This document shows, piece by piece, positions 11,559 to 19,336 of a stretch of DNA of 64,000 nucleotides (position 1 is the first letter of the stretch; each line of letters starts with the position of its first letter). A model generated the notes under the pieces. That model was not told the origin of the DNA, did not search any database, and was given only the letters and a program-made list of their open reading frames with translations. This DNA is from Methylovulum sp. (GTDB lineage Bacteria > Pseudomonadota > Gammaproteobacteria > Methylococcales > Methylomonadaceae), in NCBI RefSeq assembly GCF_028687615.1, contig NZ_JAQTZU010000019.1, positions 1 to 64,000 of the forward strand. The letters run 5' to 3'. Position numbers and translations under genes: made by a program.

Positions 11559-14500
11559 CTACCTTAGTTGCCGCCAAGACCGGCGGATTCCGGGACCAGC
11601 GGGCGGCTTGACATCAGCAACAGAACCCATTGTTCCATCAGAACCACTGACATATTTGTAATCAACTATTGGCGCCTCAACCACCGCAGGGGTTTTAATA
11701 ATGCCGACTCCCAAGTCAATACCCGACGCCGCGTGTTTTTCACCGTTTACGGTTACCAAGTCATCGTTATCAACTTTACCATCCCCGTTAGTATCAAATG
11801 GCGCGCCACTAAATTCCCCGCCATTGAGCGCGTCGAGCTCCATTAACCATGATTTTCCACCAGAGCTGCATGGGTCACGATCTGGAATAACGGTTGGAAA
11901 TATCACTAAGCCTCGGCGGACAAGGGGGAAACTGACAACCCGCTCACCTTCGGGACCATTTACTGGGCTTTTTAAATCTAATGCCCAACCGCTTCTAACC
12001 GGGCCACTCGGACAAGGAGCTTTATAACAAACAGGATCTTTCGAGACGACGCGAAGCGGATGGGCCGTCCCAAATGTGCCTTCAGCATCAATGGTTTGTT
12101 CTTTTAACAAGCCCCGGTCAGTGATAGACGTCCCCTTGTCCCATAAGCCGTAAAACGTTTGCACTGGCGGTGGCGGGCTGGCACTAACAATATTGTCGCC
12201 TGTTTCAAAGTATTTGCCGGTGCCAAAATAAACCATAATACCGACACCGTTTTGATCAGTACCCACAGCCCCCACTGCGCCTACGTTGGGTTTGCCGGTG
12301 ATGGGTTGGCGGTTAGGGTCATTAGGGGCGCTACAGCCGCCCGCTGTCGTGCAAGCCACAAAGAACGGGGCGGATGGGACCGGCCAAGTGCCGGCGGCAT
12401 CGGCAAGATTAAATTTCCATAAATTGCCGTACAAATCCCCTGCGTAAACCGTATCTACACTGCGGTCAAGATTAGCGTCAACGGCTACCGGGGAAGAAAG
12501 GCCATTTTTATTGGTCGGATCGCCAATCCCCGTATCAATTTTTTGCAGCACCGCACCCGTTTCTACATCAAGGACAAACAGCACGGCATGGCCTGAGTCA
12601 CTGTTATAGCCATTGGCGACAATCACCGCCCAATGCCCGTCTTGCATCTTGACTACCGTCGGCTGCGCCAAGGTATAGCCTAAGTCACCATCGTCTGCGT
12701 TGGTAAACTCCCACAAAGGGCCGCCGACGCTGCCAAAGTGGTCAGGATCGGTCACGTCCAGCGCGAATACGGCACGACCACCGGCGCCAGTCGTCCCTGC
12801 CAGCACGGTGTGCCAATCCGAACCGTAATAAACATCGCTCACAGCAGACTGGCCATCGACATAATACTGATGGGCATAGTTAGGGGATGTCAACTTACTT
12901 AATTCAGGAAATAAGGCATTGGGAATGTAAGCCAATATTTCTGTCCCGCCAGTTGCGTTGGTGGCATCAAAACCATGCAACATGCCATCATTGCCCCCCA
13001 CATAAATCATAGGCTTACGGGTTTTGTTGGTTGTTAGAAAGGCTTCATAACTGCTACCTTCTACGCCGGGTAAGCCAGCGTAGCCATAATCTTCTTTCCC
13101 CACAAATACGGGGTCGGAATTAACGATATCGCCCAAGGCACTATAAAGCCTATCCCTAAAGATACCGCCAGTATATTTTTGTTCTTTTGCGTTATCCCCC
13201 CGCAACCAGTCAACACGCAAACTGCCGTTGCCATCGTTAAAGCCTACCAAGGTATCCAGATAAGTCTGCTGGGAAGGGTTTAAGTTGTCCCACTTAAACT
13301 CGATGCTTCGAGGCACTGCCAAAGGGTTATAAGTGTAGATCTTGCGGCTGGCAGTAACCGGTAAAGGAAGTTTGGACGAGGCTTCCCAGTCTATAGTTAA
13401 AGCACCGGTATCAGGATCAATGTTATAGGCAAACAATTGACCGTTCCAGTATTTTGAGTTGAATTTGGCCTGATAAACTTGAGTGCCTTTATCCAAGCGG
13501 GTGGAATTGGCCGCCACTGCGGAAGCCGAACCCACGACATTGAGTGCCTTGGCAAAAGCTTTGCCCAGTTGCTCTGGAAGCTTTCCGGCATTGGTCACCA
13601 AAAAATAATTATCGGGCACACCGTCCTCATCGCTATCCCAATCTAGAGCATCAATAACGCCGTCATCATTTTTGTCAGTTGTTCCCCATTTTGCGGCATA
13701 CCAGAGCGGATCGTGCTTGATAAAGCTGGCCGAGGTGTTAGCCCCTGCGGTGAAGGTTCTTGATGCTGTTAATGGCAAGGGCTGACCATCGTTCCATGGT
13801 GCCGATCCTGGCGGGGTATCCAGAAAATAGTCTGGATCACTGCCTACGGCTGTATCTTTATCACGAACTTCCAGATAAACCCCGTCGCTAGACTCAGTGC
13901 CGGAGATGACATAACCCATGTGTTGGATAATACCACCCGCAGCATAAGTAGAGTTAAGATCAACCACTACCTGCTTGGAGGCATTAACAGTAAAGGTGTA
14001 TTCAACAATTGCATCCATATCATGGTCGGCGGCTTGTTCCACGTCTTCATAATTGATTCGGAATTTGCCATAAGGGCGGCCTTGGTTTATCGAGCCGTCC
14101 ATGTTTCCAGTCGCCGTGTTCGCAATTTTTTCAACATAAAAATCAACAATTTGATTGGTTGGCTGAAATTGGCCTTCCGAATTGCTAATCCCGAATGCTC
14201 CTCCTACTGATTTTGCAAAAGGCACTAAGGTGATTTTTTTACCGTCTACCGGAATTTCAATGCGGGGTAGCGGGGAAGCCAAAGCCACTGCAATCGTATC
14301 GGTTTTTTGATTCCCCGCCGCCGTATGCAAGTCGCTTCCCCTACCATGCATAGCAACGCTGGCCGCATAATACCCGCCCAATTTGGTGGGCTCTTCCGGA
14401 GCCAAGCCCCGAATATCTTTAAAACTGGTCACTGTTTTAGGGGAAGGGGTGCCATCGCTATGCGTGTTTGATTGCCCGATGAATATATTGCTCGCTTCAG

Positions 14501-15950
14501 TTTCCCCCGCCCAGATGCTATCCGCCAAGGTGGACACATTGAGACCAGCCAAGTCACTGGCAAAAACATTGAAATAACTACCAGGCAATTGGTCAGTATC
14601 ATACGATGGGTTGATATCGCTAATGACCAATTCCATCGGCCTAGCACAACTGAGGTGGCCCCCGCCACCTGCCGCCACCGCTTTATACGGGTCTAGCCAA
14701 GTTGCCACGGGCAAGCCTAAGGTGGCATCGGGTGTGTCAGTTGAAGATATTGAAAATGCAGGGGTCGGGCTGGCTTTCCCGGCAAAATAGCGCAACCCTT
14801 CGTACATCATTTCGGCAACAGGTTCGCCCCATTCAGCGGCCTCGCCTTCATTAATGGGACGGGTAGCGATCCAGCCTGACGCATAGCAATACGGGCATGC
14901 ATAATTAAAAGTCACTACCCGCAACTTGTTGATAGTGTCGACAATGCCCTTGACGGCAAGGAACTGCCCTGTAGTAGGGTTCACCTCGTTTTTGAATGAT
15001 TGTATATTTTTTCTAAGCACCCCGCCCGATATGTTTTTCTTGTACGATCCAGTGAGCAAACCAAAATACACCAAATCTTCTTCGCCATAGATATGCAGCA
15101 ATCCGGTGGGTTTATAGGTGGTGGTGGTGCCATCACTGTAAGCCTTGCAGTTGGTTTCTAACAGGCTAGGCAAGCAGACATCGACGTATACGCGGTAATC
15201 CGTGATCGTACCGCAAGCCGGTCCGCTACTACCATGTAGACATTTTGGCCCTGCTACGGGCCGTTCAATGGACACCCATTCCCATATCCGGTATGTGCTA
15301 TTTGGAAGTACGCGCAACAGCGGGTCACTTGCTGAACCGGTCAACGTGGTGCTGGCAAAAAGATGCCGCTTCCCCGAAGCAGGAAGCGGCAAAGGGGTGT
15401 AGTCCCTGATGTCATAGCCATCAACTGCCACGCTGGTATATTCCTTGCCCCAACTATGGGCGTCCTGAGGGATAAAGACCCGCTTTAAAACCGTGCTGCC
15501 CGTGGTGTCAGTACTGCGTTGGCCGCCGTATAACACTTTGCGTATCGCGTCCATTCTGGAGGTGGTCAAGTAGTTAAGGAAGTCGCCGCTCCATTCGCTG
15601 GTGCAGCTTTTGTCGGTAGTTATCGAGGTGGGCGTGAATTTATTTAAGTCGTAGATATAGCATTTGTGTGAATCAAAATAACCGTAGTAATCAATCCCGG
15701 GTTTATAACCGACATCAATCAGACCGTCATTATTAAGATCCGAGGCGTCGTTATAAGCTTCATAATAAAGCTTATGGTTCCGCCCCATGACTAGCATCAC
15801 GATGGGCGGCACACTGGTGGAAAGGAATAATGGGGCTGGCGCAATAGCCGCAAGGCTGGTGCTGGCCGGAAGCCAGGCCATTAAGCCCAACGCCAACCAG
15901 ACCAGCAAACTATTTGGGCTAAGATAAGGTTTATGCTTAAAAGTGTTCAT
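11559..15950 (-). CDS. pilY1: Type IV pilus tip adhesin/assembly factor PilY1
   Basis: A 1463-residue secreted protein. It starts at ATG 15950 (GGAG upstream), with an N-terminal hydrophobic export segment (LLVWLALGLMAWLPASTSLA). The C-terminal half is the PilY1 beta-propeller, opening with PMIYVGGNDGMLHGFDA around residue 985 and containing the calcium loop DANLDRSVD near 1157, as in Pseudomonas PilY1. Further Asp-rich, calcium-loop-like sites are DLNNDGLIDVG near 70, DWDSDEDGVPD near 770 and DTNGDGKVDNDDL near 1387. It ends with the typical RRSWRQLR. PilY1 sits at the pilus tip with the minor pilins and modulates adhesion and retraction. It lies 62 bp after pilX. Confidence 0.95.
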   Translation of the reverse strand: MNTFKHKPYLSPNSLLVWLALGLMAWLPASTSLAAIAPAPLFLSTSVPPIVMLVMGRNHKLYYEAYNDASDLNNDGLIDVGYKPGIDYYGYFDSHKCYIYDLNKFTPTSITTDKSCTSEWSGDFLNYLTTSRMDAIRKVLYGGQRSTDTTGSTVLKRVFIPQDAHSWGKEYTSVAVDGYDIRDYTPLPLPASGKRHLFASTTLTGSASDPLLRVLPNSTYRIWEWVSIERPVAGPKCLHGSSGPACGTITDYRVYVDVCLPSLLETNCKAYSDGTTTTYKPTGLLHIYGEEDLVYFGLLTGSYKKNISGGVLRKNIQSFKNEVNPTTGQFLAVKGIVDTINKLRVVTFNYACPYCYASGWIATRPINEGEAAEWGEPVAEMMYEGLRYFAGKASPTPAFSISSTDTPDATLGLPVATWLDPYKAVAAGGGGHLSCARPMELVISDINPSYDTDQLPGSYFNVFASDLAGLNVSTLADSIWAGETEASNIFIGQSNTHSDGTPSPKTVTSFKDIRGLAPEEPTKLGGYYAASVAMHGRGSDLHTAAGNQKTDTIAVALASPLPRIEIPVDGKKITLVPFAKSVGGAFGISNSEGQFQPTNQIVDFYVEKIANTATGNMDGSINQGRPYGKFRINYEDVEQAADHDMDAIVEYTFTVNASKQVVVDLNSTYAAGGIIQHMGYVISGTESSDGVYLEVRDKDTAVGSDPDYFLDTPPGSAPWNDGQPLPLTASRTFTAGANTSASFIKHDPLWYAAKWGTTDKNDDGVIDALDWDSDEDGVPDNYFLVTNAGKLPEQLGKAFAKALNVVGSASAVAANSTRLDKGTQVYQAKFNSKYWNGQLFAYNIDPDTGALTIDWEASSKLPLPVTASRKIYTYNPLAVPRSIEFKWDNLNPSQQTYLDTLVGFNDGNGSLRVDWLRGDNAKEQKYTGGIFRDRLYSALGDIVNSDPVFVGKEDYGYAGLPGVEGSSYEAFLTTNKTRKPMIYVGGNDGMLHGFDATNATGGTEILAYIPNALFPELSKLTSPNYAHQYYVDGQSAVSDVYYGSDWHTVLAGTTGAGGRAVFALDVTDPDHFGSVGGPLWEFTNADDGDLGYTLAQPTVVKMQDGHWAVIVANGYNSDSGHAVLFVLDVETGAVLQKIDTGIGDPTNKNGLSSPVAVDANLDRSVDTVYAGDLYGNLWKFNLADAAGTWPVPSAPFFVACTTAGGCSAPNDPNRQPITGKPNVGAVGAVGTDQNGVGIMVYFGTGKYFETGDNIVSASPPPPVQTFYGLWDKGTSITDRGLLKEQTIDAEGTFGTAHPLRVVSKDPVCYKAPCPSGPVRSGWALDLKSPVNGPEGERVVSFPLVRRGLVIFPTVIPDRDPCSSGGKSWLMELDALNGGEFSGAPFDTNGDGKVDNDDLVTVNGEKHAASGIDLGVGIIKTPAVVEAPIVDYKYVSGSDGTMGSVADVKPPAGPGIRRSWRQLR

Positions 15951-16012
15951 TGCAAGTCTCCGATGGGATAGTTTCGGTAAAATCGATGCGTCCAAAGACC
16001 TTTTTTATGTGA

Positions 16013-16519
16013 TTAGGGCTGATGGACGGATTGCAAAATAACCACTGTGCTGGCGGATTGTCCAGTGGCCCTAACGGTAATTCTATAAATCGGGATGGCA
16101 GGGCAAGGGGGGGTCAAACAGGGGACAGGCCCCAAATTTTGGATGATATAACTAGGCGTGGCGACGCCCAAGCCCGTAACTGAAGAAGTATGCACTGGTT
16201 GGCCTGTCCAGAAAGTATCCGTCATTAATGCCGATGTGGTCGGGATGGTGGATGCTTGCGAATAAAATCCGCCCGTACCGTCATCAGCAAACGTAGGCAA
16301 GGGGGTAGGGGGGGCAAGGGTGGCTTCTGCGGCGGCGAGGGCGGATTCGGCGGCTTGGAAAGCCAGGCTTTCGTCACGCATGTTACCAGCCATTCTCTCT
16401 TCCAGCGAGCTGGTTAGGGTGCCGGTGATGCCGATTAGGGTCAGCAGCAACAGCATGATCAAACTGATGACCAGAACCGCGCCGGATTGATATTTAATGC
16501 GTTGATACATAACTTTCAC
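16013..16519 (-). CDS. pilX: Type IV minor pilin PilX
   Basis: A 168-residue PilX-type minor pilin. After a short basic leader the line QSGAVLVISLIMLLLLTL forms the alpha-1 helix; as is normal for PilX, the +5 Glu motif is replaced by AVLVISL. The family signature EERMAGNMRDESLAFQAAES follows. Two runs of seven G on the plus strand (16107-16113 and 16308-16314) lie in the Pro-rich parts of the gene. It is placed between the pilW fusion (6 bp upstream) and pilY1, as in standard operons. Confidence 0.9.
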   Translation of the reverse strand: MKVMYQRIKYQSGAVLVISLIMLLLLTLIGITGTLTSSLEERMAGNMRDESLAFQAAESALAAAEATLAPPTPLPTFADDGTGGFYSQASTIPTTSALMTDTFWTGQPVHTSSVTGLGVATPSYIIQNLGPVPCLTPPCPAIPIYRITVRATGQSASTVVILQSVHQP

Positions 16520-16525
16520 ATTCTC

Positions 16526-18067
16526 TTATAGCCGGTTGCGGACGGCAATGGTTGAAGTAAACACCCTTCTTAACCGATGGTCAGGAGGTGTGATGGAGCC
16601 GCCATTGAAAAAATAAGCCACCGGCTCCAACGTGACATTATCTTCAAGGGATACCGCCACTAGGCTGATGCGGATGCTGACGACCCTGCCCCAGCCAGCG
16701 GCGGGTATTGAGTCGGCCGGCACATAGTAATTGGCCGAACCATAACCAGCAGTTCCAGGTGCATCCAAGTCTTCGCCATACAAAATTTGCATTTGTTCAA
16801 TCCCCTCCACCAATTCTTCGGCATTCCTTGCATCAATCCGCCGATAAAGCGCGGGTTGGAGTGAGGCATTAAGCCTTATGTAATAGCTGATCGTGTGGAT
16901 CGGATAGACTTCACCATTCCCGTAGGTTCTACCTAAATCATTATCGGCGTTACCAAGCGCACAAGCGTTGATGGGGCTTTGCGAAAGCAGGTTTGCTGCA
17001 ACTGTATTAGCTTGAAAGATAGTGGCGGCAGCACAATTTGTTACTATTGCAGAAGCGCAATAATTAGTAGTGTCGACTTTTAAAAAATCAGCGGCCTGCA
17101 AATTTGCGATAGTGGCAGTGGCATCTAAAGTCAGGCCGGCAGTGGCTGCTGCATGGGCGACCACGGTAAAGCTTTGGTCTGCCGCCCTGCGGATGGTGAC
17201 GACATCGGAGCCGCCCAGAGGGGAGGTGATCGCGGCATTGATGGCGGGTGTCCATGCCGCTGGGGACGTTGCTTCAAAGCCGTCAATGGCCCGGTCGAAG
17301 CGATATAAAAAATCGCCAGGTGGGGCAGGTAAATTCAATTTATTGGTCAGTGGTATCCCGCTGTCACATCCTAAAAACCCCGCCATGCGGATGTCGTTAT
17401 TTAGAAACCCCATCGCATAGCGGCCATTTTCTTGTATTCTGGAGAGTGCCTCGAGCATCCGGTTGGTTTGTTTGCTACCGACAAAAACCTGCAATACGCC
17501 GCCCAATAAAAACAGGCCAATCAGCATCGCCACCATGATTTCTATCAGGGTTAGGCCGGTTTGGCGGCGGTAAGTTTGGGGGGGGGGTAAGGGTTTGTAC
17601 GGCTGCCTATTTTCTAGGAGATAAGTTGACGAATGCACTTTGTTTTTTGTTGATGCTAAAAAAGATAGGCCAATGCTTTTGCTTTTATCTTCTAGGGCAT
17701 TTAGGGAGGATGCCGACGACTGCATGGATGCAGGAGGTAGAGCAACGCAGGGAGCAGTTGCCGAAATACCCTGCAAGGAGGTGGCCATGCTGCTATCCAA
17801 GTGATTGATTGAGGAGGATATAAGGATGCCGTAATTCATGCCTAGACCAGTCATTTTGTCACACGCTTGATTATAAACGTCTTTTGCTTGGGCATCGGGG
17901 GCGATGATGGCTATATCAACGTCTGATTCGCCGTGGAAGCGACCCGTTGCGTAGGAGCCAAACAAGTAGACAGGATAGGCAAAGCCTTTGAACGCCAAGC
18001 TGAGGTAGGCCAGTACATTTTTTTGTTTTTTAATTCTGGCGGCCGAGATAGGGTTATTGATGTTCAT
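16526..18067 (-). CDS. pilW: Nucleotidyltransferase (MNT)-PilW in-frame fusion
   Basis: A single 513-codon frame joining two unrelated proteins. Residues 1-100 are a minimal nucleotidyltransferase with the motif GSYATG (37-42) and the metal pair DVD (49-51), as in MntA-type antitoxins. Residues ~100-160 are a low-complexity linker, part of it encoded by a hairpin-rich repeat. From 171 a normal PilW prepilin begins: G171|LTLIEIMVAMLIG, with EALSRIQENGRYAM and the long C-terminal head. A normal PilW leader is under 30 residues, so a separate start is expected; GTG 17638 would give a 28-residue leader and 370 residues, but no clear ribosome site precedes it. A C10 tract sits in the linker. The frame start overlaps the HEPN gene by 14 bases. 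Confidence 0.8.
   Translation of the reverse strand: MNINNPISAARIKKQKNVLAYLSLAFKGFAYPVYLFGSYATGRFHGESDVDIAIIAPDAQAKDVYNQACDKMTGLGMNYGILISSSINHLDSSMATSLQGISATAPCVALPPASMQSSASSLNALEDKSKSIGLSFLASTKNKVHSSTYLLENRQPYKPLPPPQTYRRQTGLTLIEIMVAMLIGLFLLGGVLQVFVGSKQTNRMLEALSRIQENGRYAMGFLNNDIRMAGFLGCDSGIPLTNKLNLPAPPGDFLYRFDRAIDGFEATSPAAWTPAINAAITSPLGGSDVVTIRRAADQSFTVVAHAAATAGLTLDATATIANLQAADFLKVDTTNYCASAIVTNCAAATIFQANTVAANLLSQSPINACALGNADNDLGRTYGNGEVYPIHTISYYIRLNASLQPALYRRIDARNAEELVEGIEQMQILYGEDLDAPGTAGYGSANYYVPADSIPAAGWGRVVSIRISLVAVSLEDNVTLEPVAYFFNGGSITPPDHRLRRVFTSTIAVRNRL
17578..17587. repeat. C10 homopolymer inside the MNT-pilW frame
   Basis: Ten consecutive G on the plus strand (C10 on the coding strand) encode part of KPLPPPQTY just ahead of the prepilin cleavage site. 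Tracts of this length slip during replication in phase-variable genes. A gain or loss of one base would separate the MNT frame, or the GTG-started PilW leader, from PilW. Confidence 0.8.
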
Positions 18068-18311
18068 AAACTTCCCTCAAAATATCCAAGGTTTGGGAAA
18101 GGGGGCTGGTGGCTGGCTGGGCTTGTCCCGCGTCGCATGGTACAAATTTTAACAGTTTTTCTAGGGCTTGTTGGGCATGGTAGCAAGTGCCGTCCCATTT
18201 GTTTGCTGTTAGCAATATCTTCGCCATTTCAAAGTCATTGAGGCTTTGTCTTAACCAGGCATATTGGACACCGTCTTGGGTGGCAATCTGTGTGAAAGGG
18301 TTCGTGTTCAT
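18054..18311 (-). CDS. Short HEPN-domain protein (HEPN/MNT module partner)
   Basis: An 85-residue HEPN-like protein: helices around QYAWLRQSLNDFEMAKILL and TCYHAQQALEKLLK match the first half of the HEPN fold. Family proteins are usually 120-135 residues; after KLLK the sequence (FVPCDAGQAQPATS) no longer resembles the family, so the C-terminal helices look lost or replaced, and no RX4-6H RNase motif is visible. The ATG overlaps the pilV stop (ATGA), and its end overlaps the MNT start by 14 bases, so pilV, HEPN and MNT are translationally coupled. In intact modules HEPN is the toxin and MNT the AMPylating antitoxin. Activity here is doubtful. Confidence 0.7.
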   Translation of the reverse strand: MNTNPFTQIATQDGVQYAWLRQSLNDFEMAKILLTANKWDGTCYHAQQALEKLLKFVPCDAGQAQPATSPLSQTLDILREVYEHQ

Positions 18312-18754
18312 AACCGAAAACTCGTTAGGAAATCGGGGTCATCACCGTCAACCACACCATCATGATTTTCGTCCCAACTGATACTGATGGTAATTATGCC
18401 GGCGATTTGGCCGATGTTGACCGCGTTGACGGGCAGGGCGGCTATTAACGCCAAGTTCCATTCATAGAGATCATTTTCTGCCATGTCCGCCGGACTGCAA
18501 CCGGTGGTGCTCTGGCAACCTGGTTTTGCTGCGGCAGTGGTCGGGTCGGCGATGTAAGAGCCTACGGCACCGGCATTGGCGCGTATCCTGTCCGCCAAAT
18601 CATTGGCGTATTGGGTGGCTTGGCTGCGGTTGTAAGCGCCCTGGTTATTGCCCAGGCTGGTGGCTTGCAAGCCAGCCAGCCCAAGCAAGCCTGCCGCTAG
18701 TACCAGCATGGCTATCAGGACTTCGATTAGGGTGAATCCGGAGCTGTTATTCAT
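18308..18754 (-). CDS. pilV: Type IV minor pilin PilV
   Basis: A 148-residue prepilin with a six-residue leader and site MNNSSG|FTLIEVLIAMLVLAAG, followed by the PilV pattern GLAGLQATSLGNNQGAYNRSQATQ (read in two parts) and two Cys in CQSTTGC. It helps form the pilus priming complex with FimT, PilW, PilX and PilE. It is 18 bp downstream of fimT; its stop overlaps the inserted HEPN gene. Confidence 0.92.
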   Translation of the reverse strand: MNNSSGFTLIEVLIAMLVLAAGLLGLAGLQATSLGNNQGAYNRSQATQYANDLADRIRANAGAVGSYIADPTTAAAKPGCQSTTGCSPADMAENDLYEWNLALIAALPVNAVNIGQIAGIITISISWDENHDGVVDGDDPDFLTSFRL

Positions 18755-18772: not shown

Positions 18773-19336
18773 TTATGGGCAATTGACTGGAAGGGGAGGG
18801 TCATAGGGAGGAACGTCAACTCTTGCCCGCCCCGTTGAGTTTACGATGATTTTACGCGATTGACCGTCATCATGAGTACCGTCGCATAAAGTGAAGGTAT
18901 CGCCAATGGGAGTCCCACTGAGACCATTGGGTAAAAAAACTGCATGGTCATCATAACTACCCCCCGTTGTCAACGTGTAACCGGCCGGCAAGCCATCATA
19001 AGTCCGTAACAAACAGTCTGCGTTTGGCAGGCAAGCTCCCGCATTAGGATCGAGGGCATTGTCACCGTCGGCATCGACAAAAACATCCCAGCCGGATTCC
19101 CAAGCGCCGGCGGTAGGACCTTTCCGCAACACGGTGACCCGCACACTCCGCTTGACCGCTTCGCTTCTGGCAAGACTTAAGGCGCTAACGAAATCATTGG
19201 TGGAGGCGGTCAAGCGGCTGTTGCTGATCATGCTTTGGAAGCTGGGTGTGGCGATGCCTACGACTATTGAGGCTATCGCCAGCGTCATCATTAATTCAAT
19301 CAGGGTAAAGCCGATCTGTGTTTTTTTGTTGTGCAT
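18773..19336 (-). CDS. fimT: Type IV pilus minor pilin FimT/GspH family
   Basis: A 187-residue prepilin. Leader MHNKKTQIG, then FTLIELMMTLAIASIVVGIA, the GspH/FimT continuation FQSMISNSRLTASTNDFV and SALSLARSEAVKR, and a Gly-rich C-terminal head with Cys in GACLPNADC. FimT-type proteins are the first gene of minor pilin operons and can bind DNA in competent species. It is the first gene of the minus-strand pilin operon, preceded by a long repeat island. Confidence 0.9.
   Translation of the reverse strand: MHNKKTQIGFTLIELMMTLAIASIVVGIATPSFQSMISNSRLTASTNDFVSALSLARSEAVKRSVRVTVLRKGPTAGAWESGWDVFVDADGDNALDPNAGACLPNADCLLRTYDGLPAGYTLTTGGSYDDHAVFLPNGLSGTPIGDTFTLCDGTHDDGQSRKIIVNSTGRARVDVPPYDPPLPVNCP

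Follow-up and report, generated by a model that had tools for sequence, protein, structure and literature searches.

The minor-pilin operon on the minus strand of the window, i.e. the whole stretch of 64,000 nucleotides that was analysed, raises the question of why a HEPN/MNT pair lies between pilV and pilW, and whether the nucleotidyltransferase (MNT) that continues in frame into PilW is an insertion scar or a working part of the pilus machinery. The gene order is fimT-pilV-HEPN-MNT::PilW-pilX-pilY1, opening with fimT (18773..19336), a GspH-type minor prepilin (Pfam GspH, 71.3 bits; N_methyl), followed by pilV (18308..18754), a PF05168 HEPN ORF of 85 amino acids (18054..18311) and a stop-free ORF of 513 amino acids (16526-18067), and closing with pilX (16013..16519; PilX_N, 57.3 bits) and a pilY1-like ORF of 1478 amino acids with an intact frame (11559..15995), which was named from its position and resemblance. 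Inspection of the ORFs confirmed that, as a sequence-only reading of this DNA had stated, the pair sits between pilV and pilW, with the pilV stop overlapping the HEPN start by four nucleotides (ATGA, 18308-18311) and HEPN overlapping the long ORF by 14 nucleotides (18054-18067). The junction of pilV, HEPN and MNT::PilW gave no Rfam match. Within the window genome, the fusion is the sole PilW-profile match, alongside one PF05168 HEPN and a prepilin peptidase (PilD) candidate.

Pfam analysis of the 513-residue ORF placed Polbeta/NTP_transf_2 at residues 33-68, N_methyl at 167-192 and PilW at 395-511, which agrees with the earlier description of an MNT frame running without a stop into PilW and of a prepilin site at residue 171. 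The MNT domain comprises residues 1-100 (17768..18067, minus strand; PF18765/PF01909 and alignment) with the GSX10DXD motif at residues 37-51, and is followed by a linker of residues 101-171 (17555..17767) that is predicted to be disordered. The mature PilW part (16526..17554) begins after the prepilin site G171|LTLIE, in which Gly-1 and Glu+5 of the N-methylation motif are present, and scores above the cut-offs of both PF16074 (84.7 bits, cut-off 26) and PF07963 (27.9 bits, cut-off 21.2). AlphaFold modelled residues 86-172, which precede the pilin helix, at very low confidence, in line with a flexible linker; the MNT part was likewise of low confidence, with an alignment that contained no MNT homologues. 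Both other frames of the linker contain stops, and the MNT-PilW frame runs across a C10 tract (G10 on the plus strand; 17578..17587), the longest G/C homopolymer of the window, at which slippage would put PilW out of frame with its own start. In this assembly, the linker and the tract may contain sequencing errors.

A search with HEPN and MNT profiles through 237 genomes of the family returned 12 MNT carriers; among 311 genomes of the order a thirteenth was found, G282, which has a HEPN-MNT pair and belongs to another family. Complete MNT::PilW fusions were found in four further genomes from two other genera, which answers the suggestion to look for such cases and revises the earlier view that the fusion had no obvious precedent. 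G020, from a second genus, carries the same order of pilV, ATGA overlap, HEPN (146 amino acids) and MNT::PilW (478 amino acids) as the window, and since the same junction occurs in this independent genome, the fusion as such is no assembly artefact; an origin in a single assembly is likewise ruled out by the four further genomes. G157 and G176 share the order fimT-pilV-HEPN-MNT::PilW, while G162 has lost HEPN and reads pilV-MNT::PilW. All four retain GSX10DXD and the third metal-binding Asp, and three of the four a full-length HEPN. One further carrier, G067, has the MNT fused to PilV and not to PilW (285 amino acids; NCBIfam PilV, 79.8 bits; L137:4330-5187), behind a truncated fimT and the relic of a HEPN C-terminus. 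Three genomes (G009, G010, G131) hold an unfused HEPN-MNT pair ahead of fimT within the minor-pilin operon. In G009, a stop and frameshifts interrupt the HEPN, and behind the MNT lies an apparent frameshifted 5' piece of pilW (L110:1200-1480), which suggests that the cassette may have moved or been duplicated along with pilW sequence. In G196 and G197, an MNT or a HEPN-MNT pair has a different minor-pilin-like cluster at a distance of about 2 kb; in G197 the pair is intact (L144:5238-5976) and the cluster lies on the opposite strand (L144:7872-11438). In G104 and G282 the cassette is located elsewhere. Overall, nine of the 13 carriers have the cassette within the minor-pilin operon, which covers just a few kb in a genome of several Mb. 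Plasmid and viral contigs gave no match to the cassette, and a wider gammaproteobacterial family was rejected, as the HEPN subfamily occurred in no out-of-family genome among 369 sampled across the class. The MNT::PilW fusion is thus real and recurrent, and it is unreported in the literature searched, where no text connects HEPN proteins to minor pilins or PilW to nucleotidyltransferases.

Traces of the cassette extend beyond the complete fusions. Most of the 128 pilV/pilW junctions examined are empty, with a TTATGA at the end of pilV that overlaps the pilW ATG and a PilW leader of mostly about 5-20 residues, compared with 116-171 residues in the MNT fusions and 171 in the window. Beyond the five complete PilW fusions, about nine PilW genes have a leader that is a HEPN or MNT remnant, always in frame with PilW: the C-terminal half of MNT in G149 (HMM E-value 4e-9), a degraded MNT in G207 (1.4e-7), the MNT N-terminus in G047, G081, G082 and KTt618, and the HEPN N-terminus in G001 (5.5e-8), G072 and G128. 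Shuffle tests of the short remnants gave p values of 0.0005-0.0025; as these had been chosen by visual inspection of 128 leaders, G072 and G081 are the weakest. The leader of G131, taken by eye for an MNT tail, was unsupported by the profile test and left out of the count. A second repeat-like stretch (HSHAPAWER...ASLAAFPRRSVGT) was noticed in the PilW leader of G001, between the HEPN N-terminus and PilW (L025:868-1824). In KTt618 and G081, a mini-HEPN of 42-43 codons is linked by ATGA overlaps to pilV on one side and to the MNT-derived start on the other, and together with the in-frame remnants this shows that deletions have repeatedly preserved the chain of overlapping starts into PilW.

Comparison of the fused genomes points to constraint on the cassette. 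In the same pairs of fused genomes, the MNT parts are 62-63% identical at the amino acid level and the mature PilW parts 53-66%, making the two about equally conserved; HEPN identity reaches 69% between G157 and G176 and 74% between the remaining part of the window HEPN and that of G020, while the MNT-PilW linker is poorly conserved. Values of dN/dS for MNT were about 0.12-0.23 where computable, rough figures because dS is high or saturated. Several lineages (G020 and the trio G157, G176 and G162) therefore appear to have kept the cassette under purifying selection, which in some of them could predate the fusion. The trio is monophyletic both in the PilV/PilW tree (SH-aLRT 96) and in the MNT/HEPN tree (100/100), and its short linkers are alike, suggesting one fusion that was inherited with its catalytic triad intact. 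On the PilV/PilW tree the carriers are scattered (11 changes, G131 counted), a single clade for all of them was rejected (p-AU 0.003; 14 carriers, G131 left out), and in G019, the nearest relative of the window there, the site is empty. One dispersed repeat is nevertheless common to window and G020, in which it occupies the same position behind MNT, and the linker of G067 opens with a similar stretch. This history is compatible with transfer of the cassette by recombination within the flanking pilin genes as well as with its repeated precise loss. The repeat (17708..17764 in the window), which is translated within the linker and has 16 other matches in the genome, measures about 48-57 bp when its copies are aligned (window 17708-17764; L108:6526-6570; L114:2635-2692) and lies in frame at the 3' end of MNT in window and G020; in G002 it was seen inside an IS110-like transposase ORF.

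How PilW is translated from such an ORF was approached through the Shine-Dalgarno (SD) strength of candidate starts. The MNT ATG scored -6.1 kcal/mol in the window and -9.4 kcal/mol in G020, the best internal start of the window fusion only -3.1 kcal/mol (random median -2.4), and the GTG and ATG located 28 and 57 codons upstream of that cleavage by PilD (+1.7 and +1.4 kcal/mol) have no SD. In G157, G176 and G162, the SD of the MNT start is weak, and none was found for the four empty-site pilW genes tested, whose translation appears to rely on coupling to pilV. Given an SD at the MNT starts of window and G020 and none near the prepilin site, PilW is most likely translated from the MNT start. 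PilD cleaves prepilins on the cytoplasmic side of the membrane, so that an N-terminal MNT is topologically compatible with processing and would be released.

The window copy itself bears marks of decay. Alignments revealed that ~64 N-terminal and ~20 C-terminal residues of a ~145-residue HEPN are joined in frame, with loss of about 60 residues including the entire second half of the helical bundle, which is of full length in G020, G157, G176 and others; the natural stop overlapping the MNT start is retained. The HEPN described in the sequence-only reading as truncated is thus indeed incomplete, but by an in-frame internal deletion. A dispersed repeat was considered as its cause and rejected, the stretch around the deletion having no other copy in the genome. 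In the MNT, GSX10DXD is intact (G37 S38 ... D49 V D51) and conserved in 12 other MNTs, as had been noted in favour of possible activity; in contrast, the third metal-binding Asp, kept in 11 of 12 homologues and replaced by Glu in G282, is Gly80 in the window (codon 17828..17830). The aligned residue of MntA is D71, which binds the second Mg2+ (PMC7641770). On the strength of this one residue, the window MNT is predicted to be inactive. The absence of an RNase motif, previously counted in favour of a scar, carries no such weight: the His of the motif (Rx4-6H; RX4HXY) is absent from all eight full-length HEPNs of the subfamily, which is a Class II trait (PMC7641770) and not specific to the window. 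By profile and motif comparison, the relatives belong to the Class II HEPN/MNT family, of which the window holds a decayed relic, and the window MNT would now most likely serve chiefly to supply the ribosome-binding site, start and leader of PilW.

We consider it likely that a Class II cassette was inserted at the pilV/pilW junction, where its MNT became the leader of PilW, and that it was kept in relatives and has decayed in the window. A cassette of a PF05168 HEPN and a Pol-beta MNT would have entered a Methylococcales minor-pilin operon at the ATGA overlap of pilV and pilW, with HEPN taking over the start codon coupled to pilV and MNT running in frame into pilW as an oversized prepilin leader. 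Such a leader would be tolerable for PilW because PilD cuts at Gly|Leu on the cytoplasmic side, a cleavage by which a single polypeptide would yield both free MNT and mature PilW. In G020 and in G157, G176 and G162, the cassette would have been kept by purifying selection as a probably active, predicted nucleotidyltransferase, while the decayed cassette of the window would offer PilW mainly an RBS, start and leader. This account draws on anatomy, recurrence, conservation, scars and decay as read from the genomes, from which we infer translation start, PilD cleavage, release and the activity or inactivity of the MNT. The earlier alternatives, a scar hijacking pilW translation or a tethered enzyme, are hence divided: the scar fits the window with its HEPN deletion and lost metal ligand, but 'scar only' fails for the family, as relatives possess the full catalytic triad, a full-length HEPN (three of four) and signs of purifying selection. 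Relatives in other genera thus probably retain function.

Among the explanations that compete with this account, a toxin-antitoxin addiction module, in which the MNT antitoxin and HEPN toxin would make loss of pilW costly and the toxin is disarmed in the window, appears rather unlikely. HEPN/MNT pairs are known toxin-antitoxin systems (PMC7641770), the closest PDB relative of the MNT is MntA, and loss of the toxin before the antitoxin would fit both the window, which retains most of the MNT next to an internally deleted HEPN, and G162, which retains the MNT alone; however, the RNase His is absent from 8/8 full-length HEPNs, Class II modules have no RX4H (PMC7641770), and the MNT falls under the NCBIfam MntA cut-off. 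That the fusion works in the window as well, with the HEPN remnant and an MNT active at the inner membrane or after release by PilD and its chemistry, AMPylation or nucleotide transfer, coupled to pilus assembly, is very unlikely: although GSX10DXD is intact, the frame is held over a 71-residue linker and relatives hold the module under selection, the window HEPN lacks about 60 residues, Gly80 replaces the third metal ligand, and no other PF05168 HEPN is present in the genome as a partner.

Two further explanations concern the frame itself. An unrecognised internal PilW start, which would make the upstream frame accidental and without product and leave MNT read separately or never, could draw on the GTG and ATG upstream of the cleavage site, on the poorly conserved linker and on the weak SD of the MNT start itself in G157, G176 and G162. 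We regard it as distinctly unlikely, since these candidates have no SD, no upstream ORF ends nearby to allow coupling, five genomes have the open frame and partial remnants are always in frame. A miscounted C10 tract, with MNT and PilW in truth separate frames in the window genome, is barely credible; the ten-base homopolymer does lie exactly within the linker, but G020, G157, G176 and G162 are fused without such a tract and the shifted frame would leave PilW with no in-frame start near its leader. Beyond insertion at the pilV/pilW junction followed by decay, we tentatively raise the possibility of a device in several methanotroph genera, in which prepilin peptidase would release a nucleotidyltransferase in step with minor-pilin maturation and so couple AMPylation to type IV pilus assembly, the window representing a late, decaying stage.

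HEPN/MNT is reportedly the most abundant of all toxin-antitoxin modules (PMC7641770), and here one HEPN/MNT subfamily is repeatedly tied to a single machine, the minor-pilin operon of the type IV pilus, and fused to its prepilins. The findings also suggest a general route of domain capture: as the prepilin leader is cut off, it can admit a whole foreign protein without harm to the pilin, and remnants of such leaders stay trapped because the translation start lies within them. With intact copies in other methanotroph genera, both the link to the pilus and domain capture are directly testable.

Comparison with known systems assigns the cassette to the Class II HEPN/MNT modules on the basis of PF05168 (40.5 bits, cut-off 22) and PF01909 (31.5 bits, cut-off 21), matched by overlapping ORFs as an adjacent pair. 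It shares with described Class II modules (PMC7641770) the Pfam pair, GSX10DXD and a HEPN without RX4H, but lies within a fimT-pilV-pilW-pilX operon, where PilW or PilV is its fusion partner. The type VII, Class I pair HepT/MntA (Shewanella oneidensis SO_3166/SO_3165; PDB 5yep/6m6v/7bxo) resembles it in GSX10DXD and, in the relatives, the third metal Asp, in a HEPN gene that adjoins and overlaps MNT, and in MntA being the closest structure to the MNT in the PDB; unlike HepT, the HEPN belongs to PF05168 and lacks RX4HXY, the MNT scores 25-33 bits against the NCBIfam MntA_antitoxin cut-off of 60, and it is fused to a prepilin inside a pilin operon. HEPN precedes MNT here, whereas MNT is almost always first (PMC3710099). 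A different His may take over in some PF05168 proteins, and HEPNs fused to nucleotidyltransferases are probably substrate-binding domains (PMC3710099); this role, together with the absent RNase His, makes a two-subunit nucleotidyltransferase at least as likely, by analogy, as an RNase toxin. With the type IVa minor pilin PilW (PF16074), finally, the fusion has in common the N-methylation motif, the PilW C-terminal domain and its position in the operon, while its leader of 116-171 residues with a nucleotidyltransferase domain takes the place of the usual ~5-20 residues.
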